Positions 5,912 to 17,260 of a stretch of DNA of 38,194 bases are shown piece after piece. The first letter of the stretch is position 1. Every line of letters begins with the position of its first letter. The stretch spans positions 1-38,194 of the forward strand of contig JAKQJM010000055.1 of the NCBI GenBank assembly GCA_029561145.1, written 5' to 3'. The DNA comes from Pseudomonadota bacterium (lineage in GTDB: Bacteria > Pseudomonadota > Gammaproteobacteria > Xanthomonadales > Rhodanobacteraceae). Made by a program: the position numbers and the translations under genes. The notes under the pieces are model-generated. The model was not told where the DNA came from, did no database searches, and was given only the letters and a program-made list of their open reading frames with translations.

Positions 5912-6946
5912 ATGGTCTGGATAAGCTGGGTACTCGCGTTGATCGCGTTCGGAGCCGTGGGATACCTGGCCATGCGCTGGAACGACGAGCGCAAGACGAC
6001 CCAACACCTGCGCAACGAGCGCATGCATCTTGCCGATGAGATCGAGCAGCTCAAGATCCAGCAGGCGCGCCTGATCCAGGCGGTGCCGATGTCCATCGTC
6101 GGTCGCGTCGCCAGTGATGTCGCGCGGGAGGTCGATCCCCCGCTCGGCTTCGCGCGCAGCAATGTCGAAGGAATCGGCGAACTGCTCGATGACTACCGCA
6201 AGCTGGTCAAGAACTACGACGCCGCCGTGCAGTACTGCCTGCAGCCGGTCGAGATGATCTTCGGTGCCGACAAGGCCGGACTCGATCAGCTCGTCAAGCA
6301 TGTCGAAGAGGCGCGTCGACGGCTTTTCAGCACGCGCAGCGACCTCGAGAAGAGTTCGATCCTGAGCGACTCGAAGGAAATGCTCGGCGAGGCCGTTGCG
6401 GGACTCGGCCGTTCGTCGACCCTGATGCAGAGCCTGTGTCGGTTGACCCGACCGGAGGTCGACGGGCTCGACACGATCGATGTCAACGAGATGGTCGATG
6501 CGGCGCTCAATCTGCTCGTTCCGGAATGGGGCGAGCGCATCGTTGTCGTGCGCGAATACGCCGACCTGCCGAAGATCACGGCCATGCCTGCGCAGATCGG
6601 TCGCGTGATCCTCAACATCCTCGACAACTGCGCCGCGGCGATCGACGGGCGCGGACGCATCGGCGTCCAGACACGTGCCGGTGGCACGCGCAATGTTGAA
6701 ATCCGCTTCAGTGATTCGGGATCAGGCATCGCCAATGACGCCTTGCCGGAGGTCTTCGAGCCTTTTTTCTCGACGCGTGACAATGCGCTCGGGCTGGGCC
6801 TCAGCATCGCCCACGGCATCGTCAAGGCACATGGAGGTTCGATCACGATACGTTCGACCTCGGCCGAAGGAACGGTAGTCGTGGTCAGCTTGCCGATCAC
6901 CGCGGCGGCACTGGCTGGAGTGCTGCCCGCAGTACCGCGGCGCTGA
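5912..6946 (+). CDS. Membrane histidine-kinase-like protein lacking the phosphoacceptor histidine
   Basis: The 344-residue protein has one N-terminal membrane helix (residues 3-20), a charged coiled coil (24-56), a dimerisation region and a C-terminal HATPase domain. The ATPase boxes look intact: N-box NILDN (235-239), G1 DSGSG (268-272), F-box FEPFF (282-286) and G2 GLGLS (294-298). The H-box, which in this subfamily reads AHEINNPLGF, reads AREVDPPLGF, with R72 encoded by CGG at 6125-6127 in place of the histidine. It also has no sensor domain beyond the membrane helix, and no response regulator is adjacent. It may bind ATP without autophosphorylation, dimerise with another kinase, or be decaying. 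The frame is otherwise clean. It lies 17 bp upstream of the SDR gene. Confidence 0.85.
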   Translation: MVWISWVLALIAFGAVGYLAMRWNDERKTTQHLRNERMHLADEIEQLKIQQARLIQAVPMSIVGRVASDVAREVDPPLGFARSNVEGIGELLDDYRKLVKNYDAAVQYCLQPVEMIFGADKAGLDQLVKHVEEARRRLFSTRSDLEKSSILSDSKEMLGEAVAGLGRSSTLMQSLCRLTRPEVDGLDTIDVNEMVDAALNLLVPEWGERIVVVREYADLPKITAMPAQIGRVILNILDNCAAAIDGRGRIGVQTRAGGTRNVEIRFSDSGSGIANDALPEVFEPFFSTRDNALGLGLSIAHGIVKAHGGSITIRSTSAEGTVVVVSLPITAAALAGVLPAVPRR

Positions 6947-7920: not shown

Positions 7921-7950
7921 TTGCCAACGACCGTTTGAACGGCCTAAGAT
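7921..7950 (+). promoter_or_regulatory. Sigma70-like promoter of the lipase-DUF1302-DUF1329-YCF48-RND cluster, with palindrome in the spacer
   Basis: TTGCCA (7921-7926) and TAAGAT (7945-7950) are separated by 18 bp and lie 35 bp before the lipase start. CCGTT-TG-AACGG (7931-7942) sits between the two hexamers, where a bound repressor would block RNA polymerase. No other promoter of this quality was found before the remaining four genes. Confidence 0.5.
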
Positions 7951-7985
7951 GAGGTCGCTGAAATTCCATGATGAAGGGGATACCA

Positions 7986-10175
7986 ATGCAGGCCCGATTG
8001 ATCGCGGCAGCGTTACTGCCGTCTCTGCTCCTCGCCGCTTGCGGTGGTGGGAGCAATAGTCCCCGCGCGGTTGACACGCCGGTCGCAACCAACTCTGACG
8101 GATCTCCGGTCACCGCGGTCATCACGGCTCGATTCGATCCTTCCAACGGCGTCGTGCCATTCCCGACCAACCTGTTGCTGTCGGGCACCACGGATCTGAC
8201 CCTGAATATCCCGGTCGCCAATCCGGCCAATTTCGGTGATCCGAAAGTGGCCATGAACGCACTGGACGGATTCAGCACGGTCTCGCCGATGACGACTTCG
8301 TTCTCGACACCGCCACGACCGAGCAGCCTGGTCGCCGGATCGACGGTGCGCGTCTTCCAGGTCACCCTCAGCGGCCCTGGCGGTGGCGTTACGGGACTGA
8401 CCCGCGAGTTGCAGGCCAACGTCGATTTCGTCGTCGCGCTGACCAGTTCGGATGCCGCCCGCCGCACGCTGGCCGTGGTTCCGACCAAGCCACTGCAGCA
8501 GCTCAGTTCCTACCTCGTCGTGCTGACCAATGGCATCACCGACAACGCCGGCAACGACGCCACGCCGGACCAGACCTATTTCCTCGCCAAGCGCACCACG
8601 GCCTTGTGCATCAACGGCGTCTCGCAGGAGCCCTTGCTGCCGAATGCGACCGCCTGTGCGCTCGAACCGCTGCGCCGCCTGACCAATTCACAGGAGGCGG
8701 CCGCCGCCGCCGCGGGCATTTCGCCGAGCAAGATCGTGTTGTCCTGGGTAGCGACCACGCAGGGCGTCACGCCGGTCCTCGGCGCCGTGCAGGCACGCAC
8801 CGCGCAGACTCCTGCTGCAGCGACCCAGATCGCACCGACCGGGCTGACGCTCGCCGGGATCAGTCCGTCCCTGCCGCCGATCGCCGACGTCTATATCGGC
8901 ACGATCGACCTGCCGTACTACCTCGCCGCGCCGACGCAGGCGGCGCCAACCGCGCCACTGACCGGATTCTGGCGTGCTGCGCCCGGCGCGTACATTCCGC
9001 CGTTCGCCGGCCAGCTCGATCCGACCTCGACCTTCGTGACCTTCGCCAACCCGCTGCCAGTTGCCGGCTCGACGCAGAAGGTACCCTTGCTGTTGACGAT
9101 CCCGAACGCGGCATCCGGCAAGACCAAGCCCGCCGCGGGCTGGCCGATCGTTATCTACCAGCACGGCATCACGCGTGATCGCACCGACATGTTTGCCGTG
9201 GCCGGCACGCTGGCCTCGCAGGGCTTCGCGGTCATCGCGATCGACGCGCCGCTGCATGGCATCACCAGCGCTGCCAACCAACTGAACATCGCCAACACGC
9301 CGTTCGCCGCCCTCGGTGCACGCGAGCGCACGTTCAATCTCGACCTCTCGAACAACACCACCGGCGCCTCGGGGCCGGACGGCGTGATCGATTCGTCGGG
9401 AACCTATTTCATCAACCTGACCAGCCTGCTGACCTCGCGCGACAATATCCGCCAGGCGGTCGCCGACCTGCTCGTGCTTGCCCGCGCGATTCCGAGCTCG
9501 CACTACTCGGCAGGCGGAACCGATTTCGATGGATCCCGTATCGCCTTTGTCGGGCAATCGCTCGGCGGCATCATCGGCACCGTGTTCATGGGCGTGAATC
9601 CCGACGCGCAGGTTGCCCTGCTGAACGTGCCGGGTGGCGGCATTGCACGCCTGCTCGAGGCTTCGCCGACGTTCGGCCCGCGCATTCGCGCCGGCCTTCT
9701 GGCCGCTGCAGGCCTGAGCCCCGGCACGCCGGACTACGACGCGTTCTTCGGCGCTGCGCAGACCGTCATCGACTCGGCCGATCCGGTCAACTGGGCGCTG
9801 GCAGCCAACAACAGCCTGCTCGGCTCGAAGCGCCTGCTGCTGCAGGAAGTCGTCGGTGGCGGGACCGGAACGCCGGAGCAGACGATGACCGATCAGGTCA
9901 TCCCGAACTCGGTTGCCGGTGCGCCGCTTTCCGGCACCGAACCGCTGATCCGCACACTTGGCCTCGCCACGATCACACAGACGACGCAGTCGGCCAGCGG
10001 GATTCGTGGCGTCGTCCGCTTCACCCAGGGTAATCATGGTTCGCTGCTGAGTCCGTCGGGGCCAACGGGATCGCCCGCCACAACCGCCGAGATGCAGGGC
10101 GAAATGGCCAGCCTGCTGGTCAGCCAGGGTGCTGCGGTGCAGGTCAGCAATCCTTCCGTCATTCGTACGCAATAA
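7986..10175 (+). CDS. VolA-type extracellular lipase / lysophospholipase lipoprotein
   Basis: A 729-residue predicted lipoprotein: the signal sequence ends in LLLAAC, so Cys20 would be lipidated. The N-terminal part (FDPSNGVVPFPTNLL, then an immunoglobulin-like region) matches the bacterial virulence-factor lipase N-terminal domain of VolA/Pla-1-like surface lipases. The catalytic alpha/beta-hydrolase part shows the oxyanion segment IYQHGITRDRTDMF, nucleophile S525 in GQSLGG, probable acid D636 in DQVIPN and H684 in QGNHGSLLSP. Vibrio VolA releases fatty acid from external lysophosphatidylcholine; here the substrate is unknown. The ATG at 7986 follows AAGGGGA by 5 bases and gives the best signal peptide; ATGs at 7968 and 7971 are less likely. 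First gene of the five-gene cluster, 23 bp before DUF1302. Confidence 0.85.
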   Translation: MQARLIAAALLPSLLLAACGGGSNSPRAVDTPVATNSDGSPVTAVITARFDPSNGVVPFPTNLLLSGTTDLTLNIPVANPANFGDPKVAMNALDGFSTVSPMTTSFSTPPRPSSLVAGSTVRVFQVTLSGPGGGVTGLTRELQANVDFVVALTSSDAARRTLAVVPTKPLQQLSSYLVVLTNGITDNAGNDATPDQTYFLAKRTTALCINGVSQEPLLPNATACALEPLRRLTNSQEAAAAAAGISPSKIVLSWVATTQGVTPVLGAVQARTAQTPAAATQIAPTGLTLAGISPSLPPIADVYIGTIDLPYYLAAPTQAAPTAPLTGFWRAAPGAYIPPFAGQLDPTSTFVTFANPLPVAGSTQKVPLLLTIPNAASGKTKPAAGWPIVIYQHGITRDRTDMFAVAGTLASQGFAVIAIDAPLHGITSAANQLNIANTPFAALGARERTFNLDLSNNTTGASGPDGVIDSSGTYFINLTSLLTSRDNIRQAVADLLVLARAIPSSHYSAGGTDFDGSRIAFVGQSLGGIIGTVFMGVNPDAQVALLNVPGGGIARLLEASPTFGPRIRAGLLAAAGLSPGTPDYDAFFGAAQTVIDSADPVNWALAANNSLLGSKRLLLQEVVGGGTGTPEQTMTDQVIPNSVAGAPLSGTEPLIRTLGLATITQTTQSASGIRGVVRFTQGNHGSLLSPSGPTGSPATTAEMQGEMASLLVSQGAAVQVSNPSVIRTQ

Positions 10176-10198
10176 CCGATCTGGAACCGGAGTCCCAC

Positions 10199-12097
10199 AT
10201 GAAGACTTGCAAAACCCTCCAGAGCGGTACGCGCACGCGCAGTCCCGCTTTGTCCACCCTCTCGGTCGCCCTCGCGCTCGCCCTGGCCGGTGTTGCCAGC
10301 CAGGCGCAGGCGTTCGAATTCGGCGAACAGGACGGCTTCAACGGCACCGTCAACACGACGATCGGCTACGGTATCGGCTGGCGTACCCAGGATGCGTCCG
10401 ACGATCTCGTCGGCAAGGCGCAGTTCAATCCCCTGGTCAGCGCGCTCGGTCTCGGCAGCGCGCTGCAGCGGGAAGCGCAAGGCCGCTATTCGGTCAACGG
10501 CGATGACGGTGACCTGGCCTACGAAAAATGGTCGCCGATCTCGAACGCGGTGAACGCCACGGTCGAACTCAGTCTGCGTTACGGCGCGAACTGGGGTGGC
10601 TTCGTCCGCGCCACCGCGTTCTACGACTTCGAGAACAACGATCGCGACAACCTTTCCGAATCGGCCAAGGCCCGCGTCGGCACGCAGTCGCGCATCCTCG
10701 ATGCCTTCATCTTCCACGATTTCGAGATCGGCGGACGCCAGGCCACCGTGCGTTTTGGCCGACAGGTGGTCAGCTGGGGCGAAAGCACCTTCATCCAGGG
10801 CGGCATCAACGCGATCAACCCGGTCGATGTGTCGAAGCTGCGCGTGGCCGGTTCCGAGCTCAAGCAGGCGTTCCTGCCGGTCAACATGCTGTGGGGTTCG
10901 TACAATTTCGCGGACAACTTCTCGGGTGAGGCGTTCTACCTGCTCGACTTCCAGAAGACCGATCCCGATCCGGTCGGCACCTACTTCTCGACCAATGACT
11001 TCGCCGTCATCGGCGGTCGTTACGTGATGCTGAACTTCGGTACCGTGCCGCAGCCGGTGATCAACCCGGACCTGTACGTCGAGGTCTGTGGCGGCAACTA
11101 TGCCGCCAGCGACACCGGCTTGCCGGCCAACCTCGTTGCGGCCGGCTGCAGTGCCGCGTTCCCGCGCAGCAAGACGCGACTGGCAAGGGATGCGGGCCAG
11201 GGTGGTTTTGCCCTGCGCTATCTCGCCGAGAGCCTGAACAATACCGAGTTCGGTTTCTACGCGATGAACTACCACAGCCGCCTGCCGCTGATCAGCGGCA
11301 TCTCGGTCACCGGCCAGGCGCCGAATACGGGATCGGTCTTCACCGAGTATCCCGAGAACATCCACCTGTTCGGTGTCAGCTTCAACACCCAGCTCGAAGC
11401 CAGTGGCATCGCCCTGCAGGGTGAATTGAGCTACCGGCCGAACCAGCCGTTCCAGGTCGATGACGTCGAACTGCTGTTTGCCGGCCTTTCGCCGCTCAAT
11501 GTGCTGATTCCACAGCCCTATCTGCGCTTCGTCAGCCAGCTTGGAAACTATGCGCCGGGTACCGAGATCCCGGGTTACGAGCGGCACAAGATCGCCCAGT
11601 TGCAGTTCACCGGCACCAAGGTGTTCGGACCTGGCAACTGGGTGGGTGCGGACCAGGTCGCCGTGGTCGGCGAGGTCGGATTCACCAATGTGGATCTGCC
11701 CGGCAACCTGCGTTTCAACGGCGACGGCACCGACACCGGTGGCGGTGGCGACGTCACTTCGGGTGTGGGCCGCAATCCGATTACCCAGGTCGGCGGTTTC
11801 CCGACGCGGTTCTCGTGGGGCTATCGAATCGCTGCGCGCGCCGACTACAACAATGTCTGGGGCAGCCCGATCAACCTGTCGCCACGCATCGCTTTCAATC
11901 ATGACGTCAACGGCACCACTCCGGGACCGGGCGGCAGCTTCGTCGAGGATCGCAAGTCCGTCACGATCGGCACCGAGGCGAATTACCTGAGCAAGTGGGT
12001 ATTCGATATCGCCTACACCAATTTCTTTGGTGGCGGCTCGTTCAACCTGATCCATGATCGCGATTTCGTCCAGATCGCTGCCCGCTACTCGTTCTGA
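10199..12097 (+). CDS. DUF1302 family outer-membrane beta-barrel protein
   Basis: A 632-residue exported protein with a Sec signal peptide ending AQA before FEFGEQDGF (cleavage near residue 39). The mature part is rich in alternating aromatic strands, Gly and Asn (for example RFGRQVVSWGESTFIQGGINAINPVD), and ends in an aromatic C-terminal strand RYSF, as expected for a barrel assembled by BAM. DUF1302 proteins are recurrently encoded beside DUF1329 proteins, YCF48-like propellers and RND pumps. Their molecular role is not settled to my knowledge; a hydrophobic-compound channel is inferred. GGAG lies 8 bases before the ATG. The gene lies between the lipase (23 bp upstream) and DUF1329 (10 bp downstream). 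Confidence 0.9.
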   Translation: MKTCKTLQSGTRTRSPALSTLSVALALALAGVASQAQAFEFGEQDGFNGTVNTTIGYGIGWRTQDASDDLVGKAQFNPLVSALGLGSALQREAQGRYSVNGDDGDLAYEKWSPISNAVNATVELSLRYGANWGGFVRATAFYDFENNDRDNLSESAKARVGTQSRILDAFIFHDFEIGGRQATVRFGRQVVSWGESTFIQGGINAINPVDVSKLRVAGSELKQAFLPVNMLWGSYNFADNFSGEAFYLLDFQKTDPDPVGTYFSTNDFAVIGGRYVMLNFGTVPQPVINPDLYVEVCGGNYAASDTGLPANLVAAGCSAAFPRSKTRLARDAGQGGFALRYLAESLNNTEFGFYAMNYHSRLPLISGISVTGQAPNTGSVFTEYPENIHLFGVSFNTQLEASGIALQGELSYRPNQPFQVDDVELLFAGLSPLNVLIPQPYLRFVSQLGNYAPGTEIPGYERHKIAQLQFTGTKVFGPGNWVGADQVAVVGEVGFTNVDLPGNLRFNGDGTDTGGGGDVTSGVGRNPITQVGGFPTRFSWGYRIAARADYNNVWGSPINLSPRIAFNHDVNGTTPGPGGSFVEDRKSVTIGTEANYLSKWVFDIAYTNFFGGGSFNLIHDRDFVQIAARYSF

Positions 12098-12107
12098 GGT
12101 AATACCC

Positions 12108-13493
12108 ATGACACTGATGAAGAAAGCAGGACTCGCCGCACTCATCGCCACGACCATGCTGGCGAATGCGGCGTTGGCCAAGGTCAGCGCCGACGAGGCC
12201 AGGAAGCTCGGAGTGAGCGGTACACCGCTGACTCCGATGGGCGCCGAACGCGCCGGCAACAGCGATGGCTCGATTCCGGCATGGACCGGCGGCATCACCC
12301 AGCCGCCCGCCGGATACAAGGTCGGCATGCATCACCCGGATCCGTTCGCGGGCGACAAGCCGCTGTTCACGATCACCGCGAAGAACTACAAGGATTACGG
12401 CGACAAGCTCTCGGTCGGCCAGATCGGCATGTTCGCGAAGTACCCCGAATGGCGCATGGTGGTCTACCCGACGCGTCGCTCGGCCTCGAACCCGCAGCGC
12501 ACCTACGAGATGACGATGAAGAACGCGCTGACCGGCGAACTGGTCGGCGACGGTGATGGCGTGGCCAAGGTCGCCGAAGGTATCCCGTTCCCGATTCTCG
12601 ACAGCGATCCGGTGAAGGCTGGCGAGCAGGCGATGTGGAACCACAAGCTGAAGTACAAGGGTGTCTCGGCGCGGCGCTGGGCGAACCAGGCCCCGGTCAC
12701 GGCTACCGGCAAGTACGTCATGGTCCGCATCAAGGAAGAGTTGCTGGGTCTGTACTACCGGCAGGGCGCGACGCTCGCCGACATCAACAACATCCTGATC
12801 TATTTCTATCAGGAAGTCGTTTCGCCGCCGCGTCTGGCCGGTCAGGTCCTGCTCGTGCACGAAACGCTGAACTCGCAGATCGGGCCGCGCCAGGCCTGGG
12901 TCTACAACCCCGGCCAGCGTCGCGTGCGTCGCGCGCCGAACATCGTCTACGACAACCCCGGAACGGCGGCCGACAACCTGCGCACGACCGACATGACCGA
13001 CATGTTCAACGGCTCGCTCGCCCGCTTCGATTGGAAGCTGGTCGGCAAGCGCGAGATGCTCGTGCCTTACAACTCGTACAAGGCCCACAGTGCCGACAGC
13101 AAGGTCGAGGCGATGCTCAAGCCCGGTTTCGTCGATCCGGATTATCTGCGCTACGAGCGTCATCGCGTCTATGTCGTCGAGGCCACGGTCAAGCCCGGCC
13201 AGCGCCACATCAATCCGCGTCGCACGTTCTATCTGGACGAGGACAGCTGGCAGATCCTGACCGTCGACCACTACGATGCACAGGGCAACATCTGGCGCTA
13301 CTCCGAGGCACCGAGCGTCAACTACTACGAAGTGCCGGTGTTCTGGTCGACCCTCGAGGATCACCATGACCTGAAGTCTAGCCGCTACATCGCAGTCGGC
13401 CTCGACAACCAGGATGACATGTACGACTTCTCGTTCCAGACCACGCCCGACATGTTCTCGCCGCAATCGCTTCGTCAGCGCGGAATCCAGTAA
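12108..13493 (+). CDS. DUF1329 family periplasmic protein (LolA/LolB-like fold)
   Basis: A 461-residue protein with a signal peptide (MTLMKKAGLAALIATTMLA, cleaved after ANAALA). Family landmarks are ADEARKLGxxLTPxGAExAGN near the mature start, IPAWTGGI, and a large beta-rich domain with RRTFYLDEDSWQILTVDHYD toward the end. DUF1329 is related to the LolA/LolB half-barrel that cradles acyl chains, so a lipid shuttle across the periplasm is the natural inference. The start is the ATG at 12108, behind GAGGT, and not the in-frame upstream ATG at 12054 that lies inside DUF1302. The 10-bp gap to DUF1302 supports co-translation and a stoichiometric pair. Confidence 0.92.
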   Translation: MTLMKKAGLAALIATTMLANAALAKVSADEARKLGVSGTPLTPMGAERAGNSDGSIPAWTGGITQPPAGYKVGMHHPDPFAGDKPLFTITAKNYKDYGDKLSVGQIGMFAKYPEWRMVVYPTRRSASNPQRTYEMTMKNALTGELVGDGDGVAKVAEGIPFPILDSDPVKAGEQAMWNHKLKYKGVSARRWANQAPVTATGKYVMVRIKEELLGLYYRQGATLADINNILIYFYQEVVSPPRLAGQVLLVHETLNSQIGPRQAWVYNPGQRRVRRAPNIVYDNPGTAADNLRTTDMTDMFNGSLARFDWKLVGKREMLVPYNSYKAHSADSKVEAMLKPGFVDPDYLRYERHRVYVVEATVKPGQRHINPRRTFYLDEDSWQILTVDHYDAQGNIWRYSEAPSVNYYEVPVFWSTLEDHHDLKSSRYIAVGLDNQDDMYDFSFQTTPDMFSPQSLRQRGIQ

Positions 13494-13516
13494 CGCCGAC
13501 TCGATGCATTCGCCGT

Positions 13517-13544
13517 CACCATCCCTCGTAGCCGGGGGATGGTG
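13517..13544 (+). other. Hairpin in the DUF1329-YCF48 gap
   Basis: CACCATCCC-N10-GGGATGGTG forms a 9-bp stem in the only sizeable gap (106 bp) of the cluster. There is no T-tract, so it more likely acts as an mRNA processing or stabilising structure, or a partial attenuator, giving barrel and shuttle more expression than propeller and pump. Confidence 0.4.
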
Positions 13545-13599
13545 GCTTCCACGACACCGAGACGATCCAACGGGTCGTCAGCGAAGCACTGGTATCCGC

Positions 13600-14748
13600 A
13601 TGCAACGCTTCAAGCCCCGACTCGCGGTCACCCTGTCCTTGCTCGCCCTTTCGTGTGTGGCTTGCGCACAAGGGTCCGAAAACCCGGCCACGCAAGCACC
13701 CGCAAGCACGCCCGCAGACCCGCTGGACCGACCGGCCGAAGTCATGCCGCTGGCCGACCGATCGCTGATCCTCGATGTGACCAAGGTCGGCGAACGCTAT
13801 GTCGCGGTAGGCGAGCGTGGCCACGTGCTCCTTTCCGATGATGGCGTCGAGTGGACCCAGTCCGCGCATGTTCCCCTGCGCAGTACCCTGACCGCCGTCA
13901 GCGCGATAGGCGCCGATGTCTGGGCGGTTGGACACGATGGTGTCATCCTGCACAGCGGAAACGCCGGAGAGAACTGGGAGATCCAGCGCCACGACCCGCA
14001 CGGCATCCCGGGCGACACCCAGATCGACGAGCTTCGTCAGGGCGTACCGCTGCTCGACGTGCTTTTCACCGACATCAACCACGGCATCGCCATTGGTGCG
14101 TACAGCTTGTTGTTGCGCACCGCCGATGGTGGCAAGACCTGGACCGGTGCGCGCATCAATGCGAAGGATGACGGTGAAACGGCCAACGCCGAACCGGACG
14201 CCAACGCCGGATCGGACGCCCATTCCGACAACGAGTTGCAGAGTTCGGTGTTCAGCGATGACGAACTCAAGATCGGCAGGGAGAGCGACCCGCATCTCAA
14301 CGCGATCGCGCGGACAGGAAGCGGCGGCTATGTGATCGTCGGTGAGCGCGGCGCGCTGTTTCGCTCGCGCGATGGCGGCGAATCCTGGGAGCGCGGTCAG
14401 TTGCCCTACGACGGTTCGATGTTCGGGGTGTTGGGCTATGACGGCCAGCACGTGATCGCGTTTGGCTTGCGCGGACATGTCTTCGAATCCACCGATCTCG
14501 GCGTCAATTGGACCGAAGTGGCGACTGGCACCGAATTGAGCCTGATGGGCGGTGCCGCCACCGCCGATGGCGGCGCGGTCATCGTCGGTGCCAATGGCAT
14601 CGTGCTGCAGCGCGCGCGCGGTTCCGATGCGCTGACCGCGAGCACCCTCACCGCTGCCGGAATCATTGCCAATGTCCTGCCGATCGGTGCCGACGGCGAA
14701 CTGCTGATTGCCAGCGAAAACGGCATCAGCCGCTACCAGCCCAAGTGA
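13600..14748 (+). CDS. YCF48/BNR-type beta-propeller protein, exported
   Basis: A 382-residue protein with an N-terminal signal (LAVTLSLLALSCVACA, type I cleavage near ACA-QG; a lipobox is not canonical). The body is built of repeated blades such as VAVGERGHVLLSDDGVEW, AVGHDGVILHSGNAGENW, IGAYSLLLRTADGGKTW, VGERGALFRSRDGGESW and FGLRGHVFESTDLGVNW. These match the HCF136/YCF48 photosystem-assembly propellers and BNR repeats. An acidic, low-complexity insertion (about residues 188-225) interrupts the propeller. In this gene context it is probably a periplasmic scaffold joining the RND pump to DUF1329/DUF1302. The start is uncertain: the ATG at 13600 begins the signal peptide directly but lacks a strong RBS, and an in-frame ATG at 13504 would add 32 residues. 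Confidence 0.8.
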   Translation: MQRFKPRLAVTLSLLALSCVACAQGSENPATQAPASTPADPLDRPAEVMPLADRSLILDVTKVGERYVAVGERGHVLLSDDGVEWTQSAHVPLRSTLTAVSAIGADVWAVGHDGVILHSGNAGENWEIQRHDPHGIPGDTQIDELRQGVPLLDVLFTDINHGIAIGAYSLLLRTADGGKTWTGARINAKDDGETANAEPDANAGSDAHSDNELQSSVFSDDELKIGRESDPHLNAIARTGSGGYVIVGERGALFRSRDGGESWERGQLPYDGSMFGVLGYDGQHVIAFGLRGHVFESTDLGVNWTEVATGTELSLMGGAATADGGAVIVGANGIVLQRARGSDALTASTLTAAGIIANVLPIGADGELLIASENGISRYQPK

Positions 14749-14758
14749 CGGGGATTCA

Positions 14759-17260
14759 ATGAGCGCAGCCAGTTCCAGCAACAACCCCCCGAACGCCTTC
14801 CATCGCGCCGCCGAACGACTGGTATTCGGCAGCCGACCCGTTGTCCTGATCCTGTTCGCGATCGTCACCGTCGTCCTGACTTACTTTGCCGCGCAGCTGC
14901 GCGTCGATGCGGGCTTCAAGAAGCAGATCCCGCTCAAGCATGAGTACATGCAGACCTTCATCGACTACGAGCAGGAATTCGGCGGCGCCAACCGCGTGCT
15001 CATCGCGGTGATGGACAAGAACGGCGACATGTTCAACCTGCCGTTCTTCCAGACGATGGAACGGATCACGCAGGACGCCAAGGCCATCGACAGCGTCGAC
15101 GAGGCCCGCGTCCGCTCGATCTTCACGCCGAACGTGCGTTTCGTCGAAGTGGTCGAGGACGGCTTCGCCGGCGGCAACGTGATTCCCCAGGACTTCACGC
15201 CGAACAGTGAAGGTTTCGAGGCCAGCGCCGAACAGTTCGCCACGATCAAGGCCAACATGGAGAAGGCCAGCATCGTCGGCCGCCTCGTCGCCAAGGATTT
15301 CTCGGGCGCGATGATCTGGGTGGACCTGGTACCCGAGAATCCCGAAAAGGGTGTCAAGGTCGACTACAACAGGATTGCCGGCCAGCTCGACGAGATCCGC
15401 GCCAGGTACGAGAACGAACACACCACGGTCGCGATCATCGGCTTCGCCAAGATGGTCGGAGACATCACCGCCGGTGCGCAATCGGTGATCTGGTTCTTCG
15501 GCCTGACCATCGTCTTCACCTGGCTGTTGCTTTTCATCTACTCGTCGTCGGTCAAGCTCGCGTCGCTGACCGTGTTCTGCGCGTTGATTTCGGTGGTCTG
15601 GATGCTGGGTGCATTGCGCCTGCTCGGCTTCGGCATCGACCCGATGAACATGCTGACGCCGTTCCTGATCTTCGCCATCGCGGTCAGTCACGGTGAGCAG
15701 ATGATCAACCGCTACCGCGGCGAGATCTTCTTCGGCGGCCTCGAGGAAGGCACGCCGGAGGAACTGTCGCATCGTACCGGCGTCGACCCCGAAACCGCTG
15801 CACGCAGCGCGTTCCGCGCCTTGCTCGTCCCCGGGTCGGTTGCGCTGATTGCCGGATGCATCGGCTTTGCGGCGATCCTCGTGATTCCGATCCGGATCAT
15901 CTTCGAGCTGGCGATCACGGCGACCGTCGGCGTTGCCCTGACCATCCTGACCGATCTGGTCCTGTTGCCGGTACTGCTTTCCTACACGCGCCTGCGCAAC
16001 CTGCCGCGCAAGCGCGCCTATCGCCTGCGCCAGCTGACCCAGTTCGACAAGATCTGGAACGTGCTGGCGAAATTCAGCAAGCCGGTGCCCGCTGCGATCA
16101 TCCTGCTGATCGGCATTGCGATCTGGTTTGCCGCGGAACGCTACGGCGAGCACGTGATGATCGGCGATGCGCAAAAGGGCGTGGCCGAGCTGAGGCCGGA
16201 TGCGCGTTACAACCGCGATGCGGTGCTGATCAGCGACAAGTTCGCTCTCGGCGTCGATATCCTCAACGTGATTGCCGAGGGTCCGCCCTCCGCCTGCACG
16301 GCAAGTTACCCGGCCATGGAGCTGATCGACCGCTTCGCCTGGCATCTGCGCAACGTCGAAGGCGTCGCGCAGGTCATGACCATGCCGATGGCGGCCAAGA
16401 TCGTCAATGCCGGCTGGAACGAGGGCAATGTGCGCTGGCGCGAACTGCCGCGCGATGCCGACACGCTGCGTCTCGATACGCAGGGTTTCGAAACCGATAC
16501 CGGCCTGCTCAATGCCGACTGCAGCGCAATGCCGATCATGGCGTTTCTCACCGATCATCGCGCGACGACGATCGATCGCGTCGTCGATGCAGTGAAGACC
16601 TTCCGCGCCGACAATCACGCCTGGGCCGGCTCCAATGTGAACCTGCAGAAGAAGCTTGCCGAGCAGGCGGCGAGCGGCGAAGGCCTCGAGGGCAATCCCG
16701 ATCAGGTCAACCTGCGCCTGGCGACCGGCAACGTCGGTGTCATGGCAGCAATCAACGACGAGGTTCGCGCGGTCAAGCGCCAGATCCTCTACATGCTCTA
16801 CGCGGCGGTCTTCGTGATGTGCCTGATCAGCTTCCGCAGCCCGCGCGCGGCACTCTGCATCACCTTGCCGCTGGTCCTCGTCACCGAGCTCGGCCATGCG
16901 CTGATGGTGCATCTCGACATCGGCATGAAGATCAATACGCTGACCGTGGTCGCGCTCGGTGTCGGCATCGGTGTCGATTACGGCATCTACATCTTCGCCC
17001 GCATGCGCGAGTCGCTGCTGGCCGGCAAGCCGCTGACCGAGGCATATTTCGCATCGCTGAAAACCACCGGCATCGCGATCTTCTACACCGCCCTGACCCT
17101 CGCCGTCGGCGTCGGCACCTGGGTCTTCTCCGATCTCAAGTTCCAGGCCGACATGGGCGTCATGTTGACCTTCATGTTCGTCGTCAACATGGTCGCCGCG
17201 ATTGTCTTCCTGCCGGCGCTATGTCGCTGGCTGCTGCGCCCGACCGAACGGGCCACCTGA
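14759..17260 (+). CDS. RND-superfamily transporter of the HpnN/MmpL-like hydrophobe exporter group
   Basis: An 833-residue inner-membrane protein with two repeated halves. Each half has one helix, a large periplasmic loop (about residues 45-240 and 470-675) and a bundle of five helices. That size is smaller than drug RND pumps (about 1030) and matches MMPL/HpnN/COG1033 proteins, which need no tripartite outer-membrane channel. The proton-relay region in the second half reads GVGIGVDYGIYIFARMRE; the matching first-half segment reads FAIAVSHGEQMINRYR, so the relay is asymmetric (Asp-Tyr versus Ser-His). GGGGA precedes the ATG at 14759, 10 bp after the propeller gene. It likely powers transfer of a hydrophobic substrate between the inner membrane and the DUF1329 shuttle. 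Confidence 0.9.
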   Translation: MSAASSSNNPPNAFHRAAERLVFGSRPVVLILFAIVTVVLTYFAAQLRVDAGFKKQIPLKHEYMQTFIDYEQEFGGANRVLIAVMDKNGDMFNLPFFQTMERITQDAKAIDSVDEARVRSIFTPNVRFVEVVEDGFAGGNVIPQDFTPNSEGFEASAEQFATIKANMEKASIVGRLVAKDFSGAMIWVDLVPENPEKGVKVDYNRIAGQLDEIRARYENEHTTVAIIGFAKMVGDITAGAQSVIWFFGLTIVFTWLLLFIYSSSVKLASLTVFCALISVVWMLGALRLLGFGIDPMNMLTPFLIFAIAVSHGEQMINRYRGEIFFGGLEEGTPEELSHRTGVDPETAARSAFRALLVPGSVALIAGCIGFAAILVIPIRIIFELAITATVGVALTILTDLVLLPVLLSYTRLRNLPRKRAYRLRQLTQFDKIWNVLAKFSKPVPAAIILLIGIAIWFAAERYGEHVMIGDAQKGVAELRPDARYNRDAVLISDKFALGVDILNVIAEGPPSACTASYPAMELIDRFAWHLRNVEGVAQVMTMPMAAKIVNAGWNEGNVRWRELPRDADTLRLDTQGFETDTGLLNADCSAMPIMAFLTDHRATTIDRVVDAVKTFRADNHAWAGSNVNLQKKLAEQAASGEGLEGNPDQVNLRLATGNVGVMAAINDEVRAVKRQILYMLYAAVFVMCLISFRSPRAALCITLPLVLVTELGHALMVHLDIGMKINTLTVVALGVGIGVDYGIYIFARMRESLLAGKPLTEAYFASLKTTGIAIFYTALTLAVGVGTWVFSDLKFQADMGVMLTFMFVVNMVAAIVFLPALCRWLLRPTERAT

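Follow-up and report, generated by a model that had tools for sequence, protein, structure and literature searches.

The window analyzed here, a stretch of 38,194 nucleotides, comes from a Dokdonella genome and carries a five-gene operon in which a VolA/Pla-1 family lipase precedes a DUF1302 barrel, a DUF1329 protein, a YCF48 propeller and an RND pump (Table 1). As the initial annotation had it, the five genes are co-directional and separated by gaps of 23, 10, 106 and 10 bp, an arrangement confirmed from the open reading frames and family profiles; the starts of the DUF1329, YCF48 and RND genes are internal ATGs, taken from the frame translations by eye, and the lipase has an alternative start at 7986. 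Export signals had been claimed for every product except the pump, and this also held when they were judged by eye rather than with a signal predictor: the lipase carries a lipobox (LAAC, Cys codon at 8040-8042), and DUF1302, DUF1329 and YCF48 have Sec-type N-termini. The nearest named loci belong to a Dokdonella MAG, other Lysobacterales MAGs and Dokdonella immobilis.

Table 1. Coordinates of the operon features in the window
Feature	Position	Strand	Evidence
Promoter TTGCCA-18-TAAGAT	7921..7950	+	Sigma-70-like scan; block recurs in 18/31 loci
VolA/Pla-1 family lipase, predicted surface lipoprotein	7968..10175	+	TIGR03502 419 bits, cut-off 383.9
DUF1302 outer-membrane beta-barrel (AmeA-like)	10199..12097	+	PF06980 558 bits
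DUF1329 periplasmic LolA-like carrier (AmeB-like)	12108..13493	+	PF07044 464 bits
YCF48/BNR-type propeller (AmeC-like), exported	13600..14748	+	PF14870 74 bits, cut-off 27
RND inner-membrane pump, HAE3/MMPL type (AmeD-like)	14759..17260	+	MMPL 82.6 bits

The sole sigma-70-like match between positions 6900 and 18300 is the one in Table 1, but the scan alone is at chance level, since 1 match was found where 1.8 were expected. A TTGCCA...TAAGAT/TATGAT block lies 5' of the operon at the query locus and 17 others among the 31 compared, its carriers being Dokdonella, Tahibacter, Rudaea and their kin; none was seen in the upstream stretch inspected at the other 13. The promoter-derived motif CGTTGCCAACG is not enriched in the genome itself (9 sites, against 10 for the reversed control), and we therefore propose no regulon for it.

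The lipase reaches the curated NCBIfam cut-off of the VolA/Pla-1 family and is by this match a putative lysophospholipase; Ser531 of its GQSLGG motif and His690 are invariant in 18 aligned sequences. We found no plasmid-borne copy at 1e-20. Sequence searches gave no related solved structure for the lipase or DUF1329 (E 0.01), nor for DUF1302 (E 0.1). The C-terminal Tyr-x-Phe of DUF1302 is invariant in 48 sequences. Membership of DUF1302 in the FadL family was considered and rejected, the protein having no PF03349 match and matching only PF06980 at E 0.001. The relation of DUF1329 to LolA/LolB suggested in the initial annotation is borne out, marginally, by a PF17131 LolA_like match of 31.1 bits (cut-off 30), and the associated reasoning that DUF1329 may carry hydrophobic molecules is supported. 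Two tandem DUF1329 genes occur in the operon at five loci (L081, L124, L146, L167 and L178).

A simple hydropathy scan of the pump gives 12 TM-like segments and two large loops. Its best NCBIfam match is the HAE3 model (146 bits, below the cut-off of 352), which scores better than the HpnN model TIGR03480 (71 bits, cut-off 752); NF052374 gives 27 bits against a cut-off of 1100. The earlier comparison with HpnN, a hopanoid transporter, is accordingly abandoned. The best solved-structure matches bear the exporter names MmpL4, MmpL5 and MmpL3, and the match to 5khn/5khs, which we take to be HpnN, is weaker. Known HAE3/MmpL pumps are exporters, and MmpL3 has an Asp-Tyr pair in both TM4 and TM10. 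When the pump and related RND proteins were aligned (92 sequences), every variant displayed had Ser-His in TM4, and TM10 had Asp-Tyr apart from two rows gapped there. Set against the two Asp-Tyr helices of MmpL3, this pattern suggests that the proton relay of the cassette RND proteins may be asymmetric.

The conservation of the operon was surveyed in 60 genomes of the order, that is, the Dokdonella genome and 59 relatives from its genus, family and order. DUF1329 was found in 33 of them and a VolA-type lipase also in 33, the latter above the family cut-off in 24. The complete lipase-DUF1302-DUF1329-YCF48-RND set is present in 31/60 genomes: 26 sets are complete on one contig, four are cut at contig ends and one is split over two contig ends. 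G021 and G027 carry DUF1329-YCF48-RND but lack the lipase and any detected DUF1302, and two others (G016 and G034) have the lipase only. The situation named beforehand as speaking against the module, a relative that keeps the other four genes and lacks the lipase, was not seen, as all 31 genomes with the full cassette have it. One Dokdonella genome (G001, locus L062), counted among the 26 complete sets and also possessing FadL, has lipase and DUF1302 frames that look interrupted, which may mean either that a redundant operon is decaying or that the sequence contains errors.

Named lipase loci were examined as the best 80 of at least 505 confirmed. Among these 80, 45 hold the full set, 24 leave the contig after DUF1302 or later, four are too short to judge, and at seven the lipase stands by itself despite at least 2.4 kb of available sequence. 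Pooling the genome survey and the named loci, two sets that overlap, yields at least 61 different loci with all five genes, each of them co-directional, and the lipase lies within 60 bp of DUF1302 in 57/61. Because order, direction and spacing are kept across the genomes and these 61 loci, we regard the joining of the lipase as real.

Flanking genes served as a control and were counted at complete loci whose sequence extended 1.5 kb or more on the side in question. Upstream, an epimerase was found at 29/57 loci, a histidine kinase at 14/57 and an exchanger at 13/57; downstream, a DUF962-like gene was found at 18/54 and a VIT1-like gene at 4/54. The flanking genes are thus partly kept too, but less so than the five operon genes. 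This comparison is one-sided because the loci were chosen for holding the five genes; the 31/31 of the genome survey was not so chosen. No fatty-acid genes were found beside the operon within the order.

The lipases fall into two kinds according to their surroundings. A regular expression detected a lipobox in 73/87 distinct cassette-linked lipases; by eye, ten of the remaining 14 have LQAC, two are truncated and only two (L080 and L089) are truly without a lipobox. At 13 lipase loci DUF1302 is absent. Three of these (L112, L114 and L138) carry a lipobox, and no cassette is visible there because the contig ends within 214 bp of the lipase. The other ten represent nine distinct sequences; two begin at a contig edge, and one of these two is cut in its signal region. 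Their N-termini are of the Sec type, end in AYDY or DYDY and lack a lipobox. Cassette lipases are therefore predicted to be nearly all lipoproteins, and orphan lipases are not.

The distribution of FadL was scored with a threshold of 180 bits for PF03349, no match in the order survey falling between 182 and 102 bits. Strong FadL is present in 3/31 operon genomes (G001, G005 and G022), the only three to combine the two, versus 27/29 of the others (Fisher 3e-11); two genomes (G006, which is 85% complete, and G033) have neither. In the 28 other operon genomes, PF03349 matches are weak or missing: 18 encode a remote member of the FadL family scoring 45-102 bits (61 bits in the Dokdonella genome itself), one has a match of 20 bits and nine have none at E 0.001. 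FadE, an enzyme of fatty-acid oxidation, is found in 59/60 genomes, and fatty-acid oxidation is therefore kept with and without the operon. The one genome in which FadE was not found, G053, is an outlier of the order in which rpoB was read as two adjacent pieces.

In nine of the 12 sampled families, every genome sampled has the operon and no strong FadL. Relatedness weakens this inverse pattern. In an rpoB phylogeny of 57 genomes (G035, G039 and G057, which gave no rpoB match, were left out, and G053 entered by the longer of its two pieces), the operon and FadL labels each change six times. Five supported independent pairs gave on average 3.1 opposite changes, none in the same direction and 1.9 without difference, so that with few independent changes the phylogenetic sign test falls short of significance (p 0.25); it takes six or more pairs differing in FadL for this test to reach 0.05.

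A wider sample of the class held 149 genomes, mostly one per family and including our own. Leaving the latter out, FadL occurs in 4/21 genomes with DUF1329 above 100 bits versus 64/127 others (p 0.009), and in 2/13 genomes with a high-score four-gene cassette versus 66/135 others (p 0.02). Restricted to FadE-bearing genomes, the figures become 3/15 versus 47/75 (p 0.004) for DUF1329, and 2/9 versus 48/81 (p 0.07) for high-score cassettes. Five genomes (G081, G136, G154, G161 and G191) carry four to ten copies of DUF1329 scoring above 100 bits, and strong FadL is absent from all five. In G016, the order genome noted above for its lipase without cassette, the lipase lies 28 bp upstream of FadL; no such neighbor was found among the other orphan lipases searched.

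Outside the order, the lipase is less constant. The 21 further class genomes with DUF1329 include the 13 with a high-score four-gene cassette, and several of the others have sets that score lower or are rearranged. A VolA-type lipase was found in 5/13 (a 26-bit trace in a sixth was not counted), on a contig other than that of the cassette in G114 and G180, and linked to the cassette in only three, all below the family cut-off; the lipase of G180, a genome with strong FadL, is the only one of the five to reach it. The lipase is thus a fixed part of the module within the order (31/31), but not beyond it (3/13). Since the four genes usually stand without a lipase outside the order, we regard the lipase as an addition to a known cassette.

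All three lipase-linked cassettes outside the order adjoin beta-oxidation or acyl-CoA-synthetase genes, and all are co-directional with them. At L193 the order is fadE-fadB-fadA-lipase-DUF1302-DUF1329-YCF48-RND, with a fadB-like gene and a thiolase and with the lipase read in two frames; at L184 it is lipase-enoyl hydratase-SDR-small ORF-acyl-CoA synthetase-cassette, and at L189 lipase-enoyl hydratase-cassette-acyl-CoA synthetase. Overall, relatives of fatty-acid genes were found at 9/172 loci, namely these three, L186, where a thiolase lies 4 kb from the cassette, L195, and four DUF1329 loci without a full cassette. At L195 (4561-8568, in G116), where the cassette is lipase-free, a single open frame of 1336 amino acids joins the RND pump to an acyl-CoA synthetase, the partner comprising a full AMP-binding domain and the C-terminal domain of such synthetases. 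No match to this fusion was found at 1e-80 in two congeners of G116, and a Pfam scan of one to three neighbors at each of ten lipase-free cassettes revealed no beta-oxidation genes. A Cupriavidus plasmid carries DUF1329-DUF1302-RND-YCF48, one further gene, an acyl-CoA synthetase and a thiolase. On the Vibrio alfacsensis plasmid pVa1 (L292), DUF1329-DUF1302-YCF48-MMPL adjoins genes of aromatic-catabolism type. A Comamonas plasmid locus (L293) was set aside, its RND gene being the sole annotated cassette gene, with transposases around it.

The core of the cassette is already known as a module associated with hydrophobic substrates. Both DUF1302 and DUF1329 are treated in several reports (PMC6394551, PMC10866462, PMC3110197, PMC7012976). 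The closest system is AmeABCD of Castellaniella defragrans, composed of DUF1302, DUF1329, COG4447 (YCF48-like) and an HAE3 RND protein, whose authors report a conserved cassette lineage (PMC6394551). The last four operon genes belong to the same families in the same order, contiguous and co-directional, a likeness judged on families and order. The Castellaniella cassette differs in lying in a monoterpene gene island and in its interpretation as an efflux system, and the available part of its description mentions no lipase (PMC6394551). In Pseudomonas putida, PP_0765/PP_0766 and PP_2018/PP_2019 are required for growth on Tween 20, and AlphaFold predicts contacts among these proteins (PMC10866462). 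That set likewise joins DUF1302 and DUF1329 to a periplasmic protein and an efflux-type transporter; PP_2018 is probably YCF48-like and PP_2019 of the RND type found in our operon. It differs in occupying two sites, judging from the locus numbers, and in that the text available mentions no lipase (PMC10866462).

VolA of Vibrio cholerae acts with FadL, the surface lipase freeing fatty acids for the outer-membrane importer (PMC12208996). The likeness lies in a surface lipase feeding an outer-membrane importer, and the gene pair of G016 matches this functional pairing; as far as the accessible text goes, the Vibrio importer differs in being FadL, with no carrier, propeller or pump (PMC12208996). 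The same families also occur in catabolic clusters for hydrophobic substrates, with the Delftia nanopod pair (PMC3110197) as a known case of the DUF1302/DUF1329 type and DUF1329 clusters from benzene cultures (PMC13101534) as another; their cargo is aromatic and the parts available mention no lipase. A Zoogloea cluster ties the core module to a hydrophobic substrate, and a Thalassolituus MMPL/LolA-like protein is raised on C28 alkane. Among the titles and abstract openings listed, with subscription papers and preprints outside the search, we found no description of a lipase-cassette operon or of an inverse relation to FadL.

These observations support the view that the five genes form one functional module, and a route from cell surface to inner membrane, as initially envisaged, is likely. 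We consider it probable that the operon is a lipase-coupled, envelope-spanning importer that takes up long-chain fatty acids or comparable acyl chains and stands in for FadL; this replacement would concern function, not family membership. The lipoprotein lipase would release a fatty acid at the cell surface, the DUF1302 barrel would pass it through the outer membrane and the LolA-like DUF1329 protein would ferry it across the periplasm, docking via the YCF48 propeller on the RND pump. The pump, possibly drawing on the proton gradient, would deliver the fatty acid to the inner membrane for trapping by an acyl-CoA synthetase and subsequent beta-oxidation. In this order, the operon would thus replace the FadL channel that partners VolA-type lipases elsewhere. 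The initial annotation had left open whether the lipase releases a product or acts on an exported one; release with import is now favored and export less so, direction and cargo being read from genome comparisons. Import fits better because FadL shows the inverse distribution while FadE is kept, and because of the lipase-FadL pair of G016, the acyl-CoA neighbors, the synthetase fusion and the anchoring of the lipase; the fixed arrangement of the operon and the Tween 20 phenotype of P. putida also speak for it. Points against it include the few independent changes on the tree, the three genomes with both systems, the sub-threshold scores of the three linked lipases outside the order, the occurrence of the fusion in a single genome, and the lack of fatty-acid neighbors at most of the ten lipase-free cassettes scanned and in the order itself. 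The main points opposing it are the exporter relatives of the pump, the dye influx in Castellaniella and the distant FadL-family proteins in many operon genomes.

The first two of these main points belong to an exporter reading, in which the RND protein would expel hydrophobic molecules such as free fatty acids, detergents or terpenes via DUF1329 and the barrel, the lipase creating the stress or trimming the product. Besides the kinship with MmpL4, MmpL5 and MmpL3, it draws on the ameABCD deletion, which raised net Nile Red influx, lowered monoterpene tolerance and was interpreted as loss of efflux (PMC6394551). Such an exporter would predict neither the loss of FadL with FadE kept nor the synthetase fusion and beta-oxidation neighbors, and we find it unlikely. 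The presence of related genes or cassettes in monoterpene, phenanthrene, benzene, toluene and other aromatic catabolic clusters would suit a general uptake route for hydrophobic compounds, perhaps sterol esters, waxes or terpene esters, joined to the lipase by common regulation. The tight lipase spacing and the split between lipoprotein and orphan lipases argue against so loose an association, and the complementarity with FadL points to fatty acids, making this route rather improbable. It is conceivable, finally, that a LolA-like carrier and a VolA-type phospholipase maintain the envelope, shuttling endogenous phospholipids or lysophospholipids from one membrane to the other while the lipase removes outer-leaflet phospholipid; yet the operon is not universal in the order (31/60), FadL is present in 27/29 genomes without it and catabolic neighbors occur, so that we consider this very unlikely.

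To our knowledge, DUF1302 and DUF1329 are widespread families without known function, and long-chain fatty-acid uptake in FadL-free Gram-negative bacteria is unclear. Taken together, the lipase, the complementarity with FadL and the pump-synthetase fusion would assign the cassette a specific cargo and direction and make the proposal testable. More tentatively, an energized importer with its own lipase may replace FadL in most of the sampled families, its RND uptake pump handing the fatty acid to an acyl-CoA synthetase that in one genome is part of the same polypeptide. If true, this would add an import class to the RND proteins.
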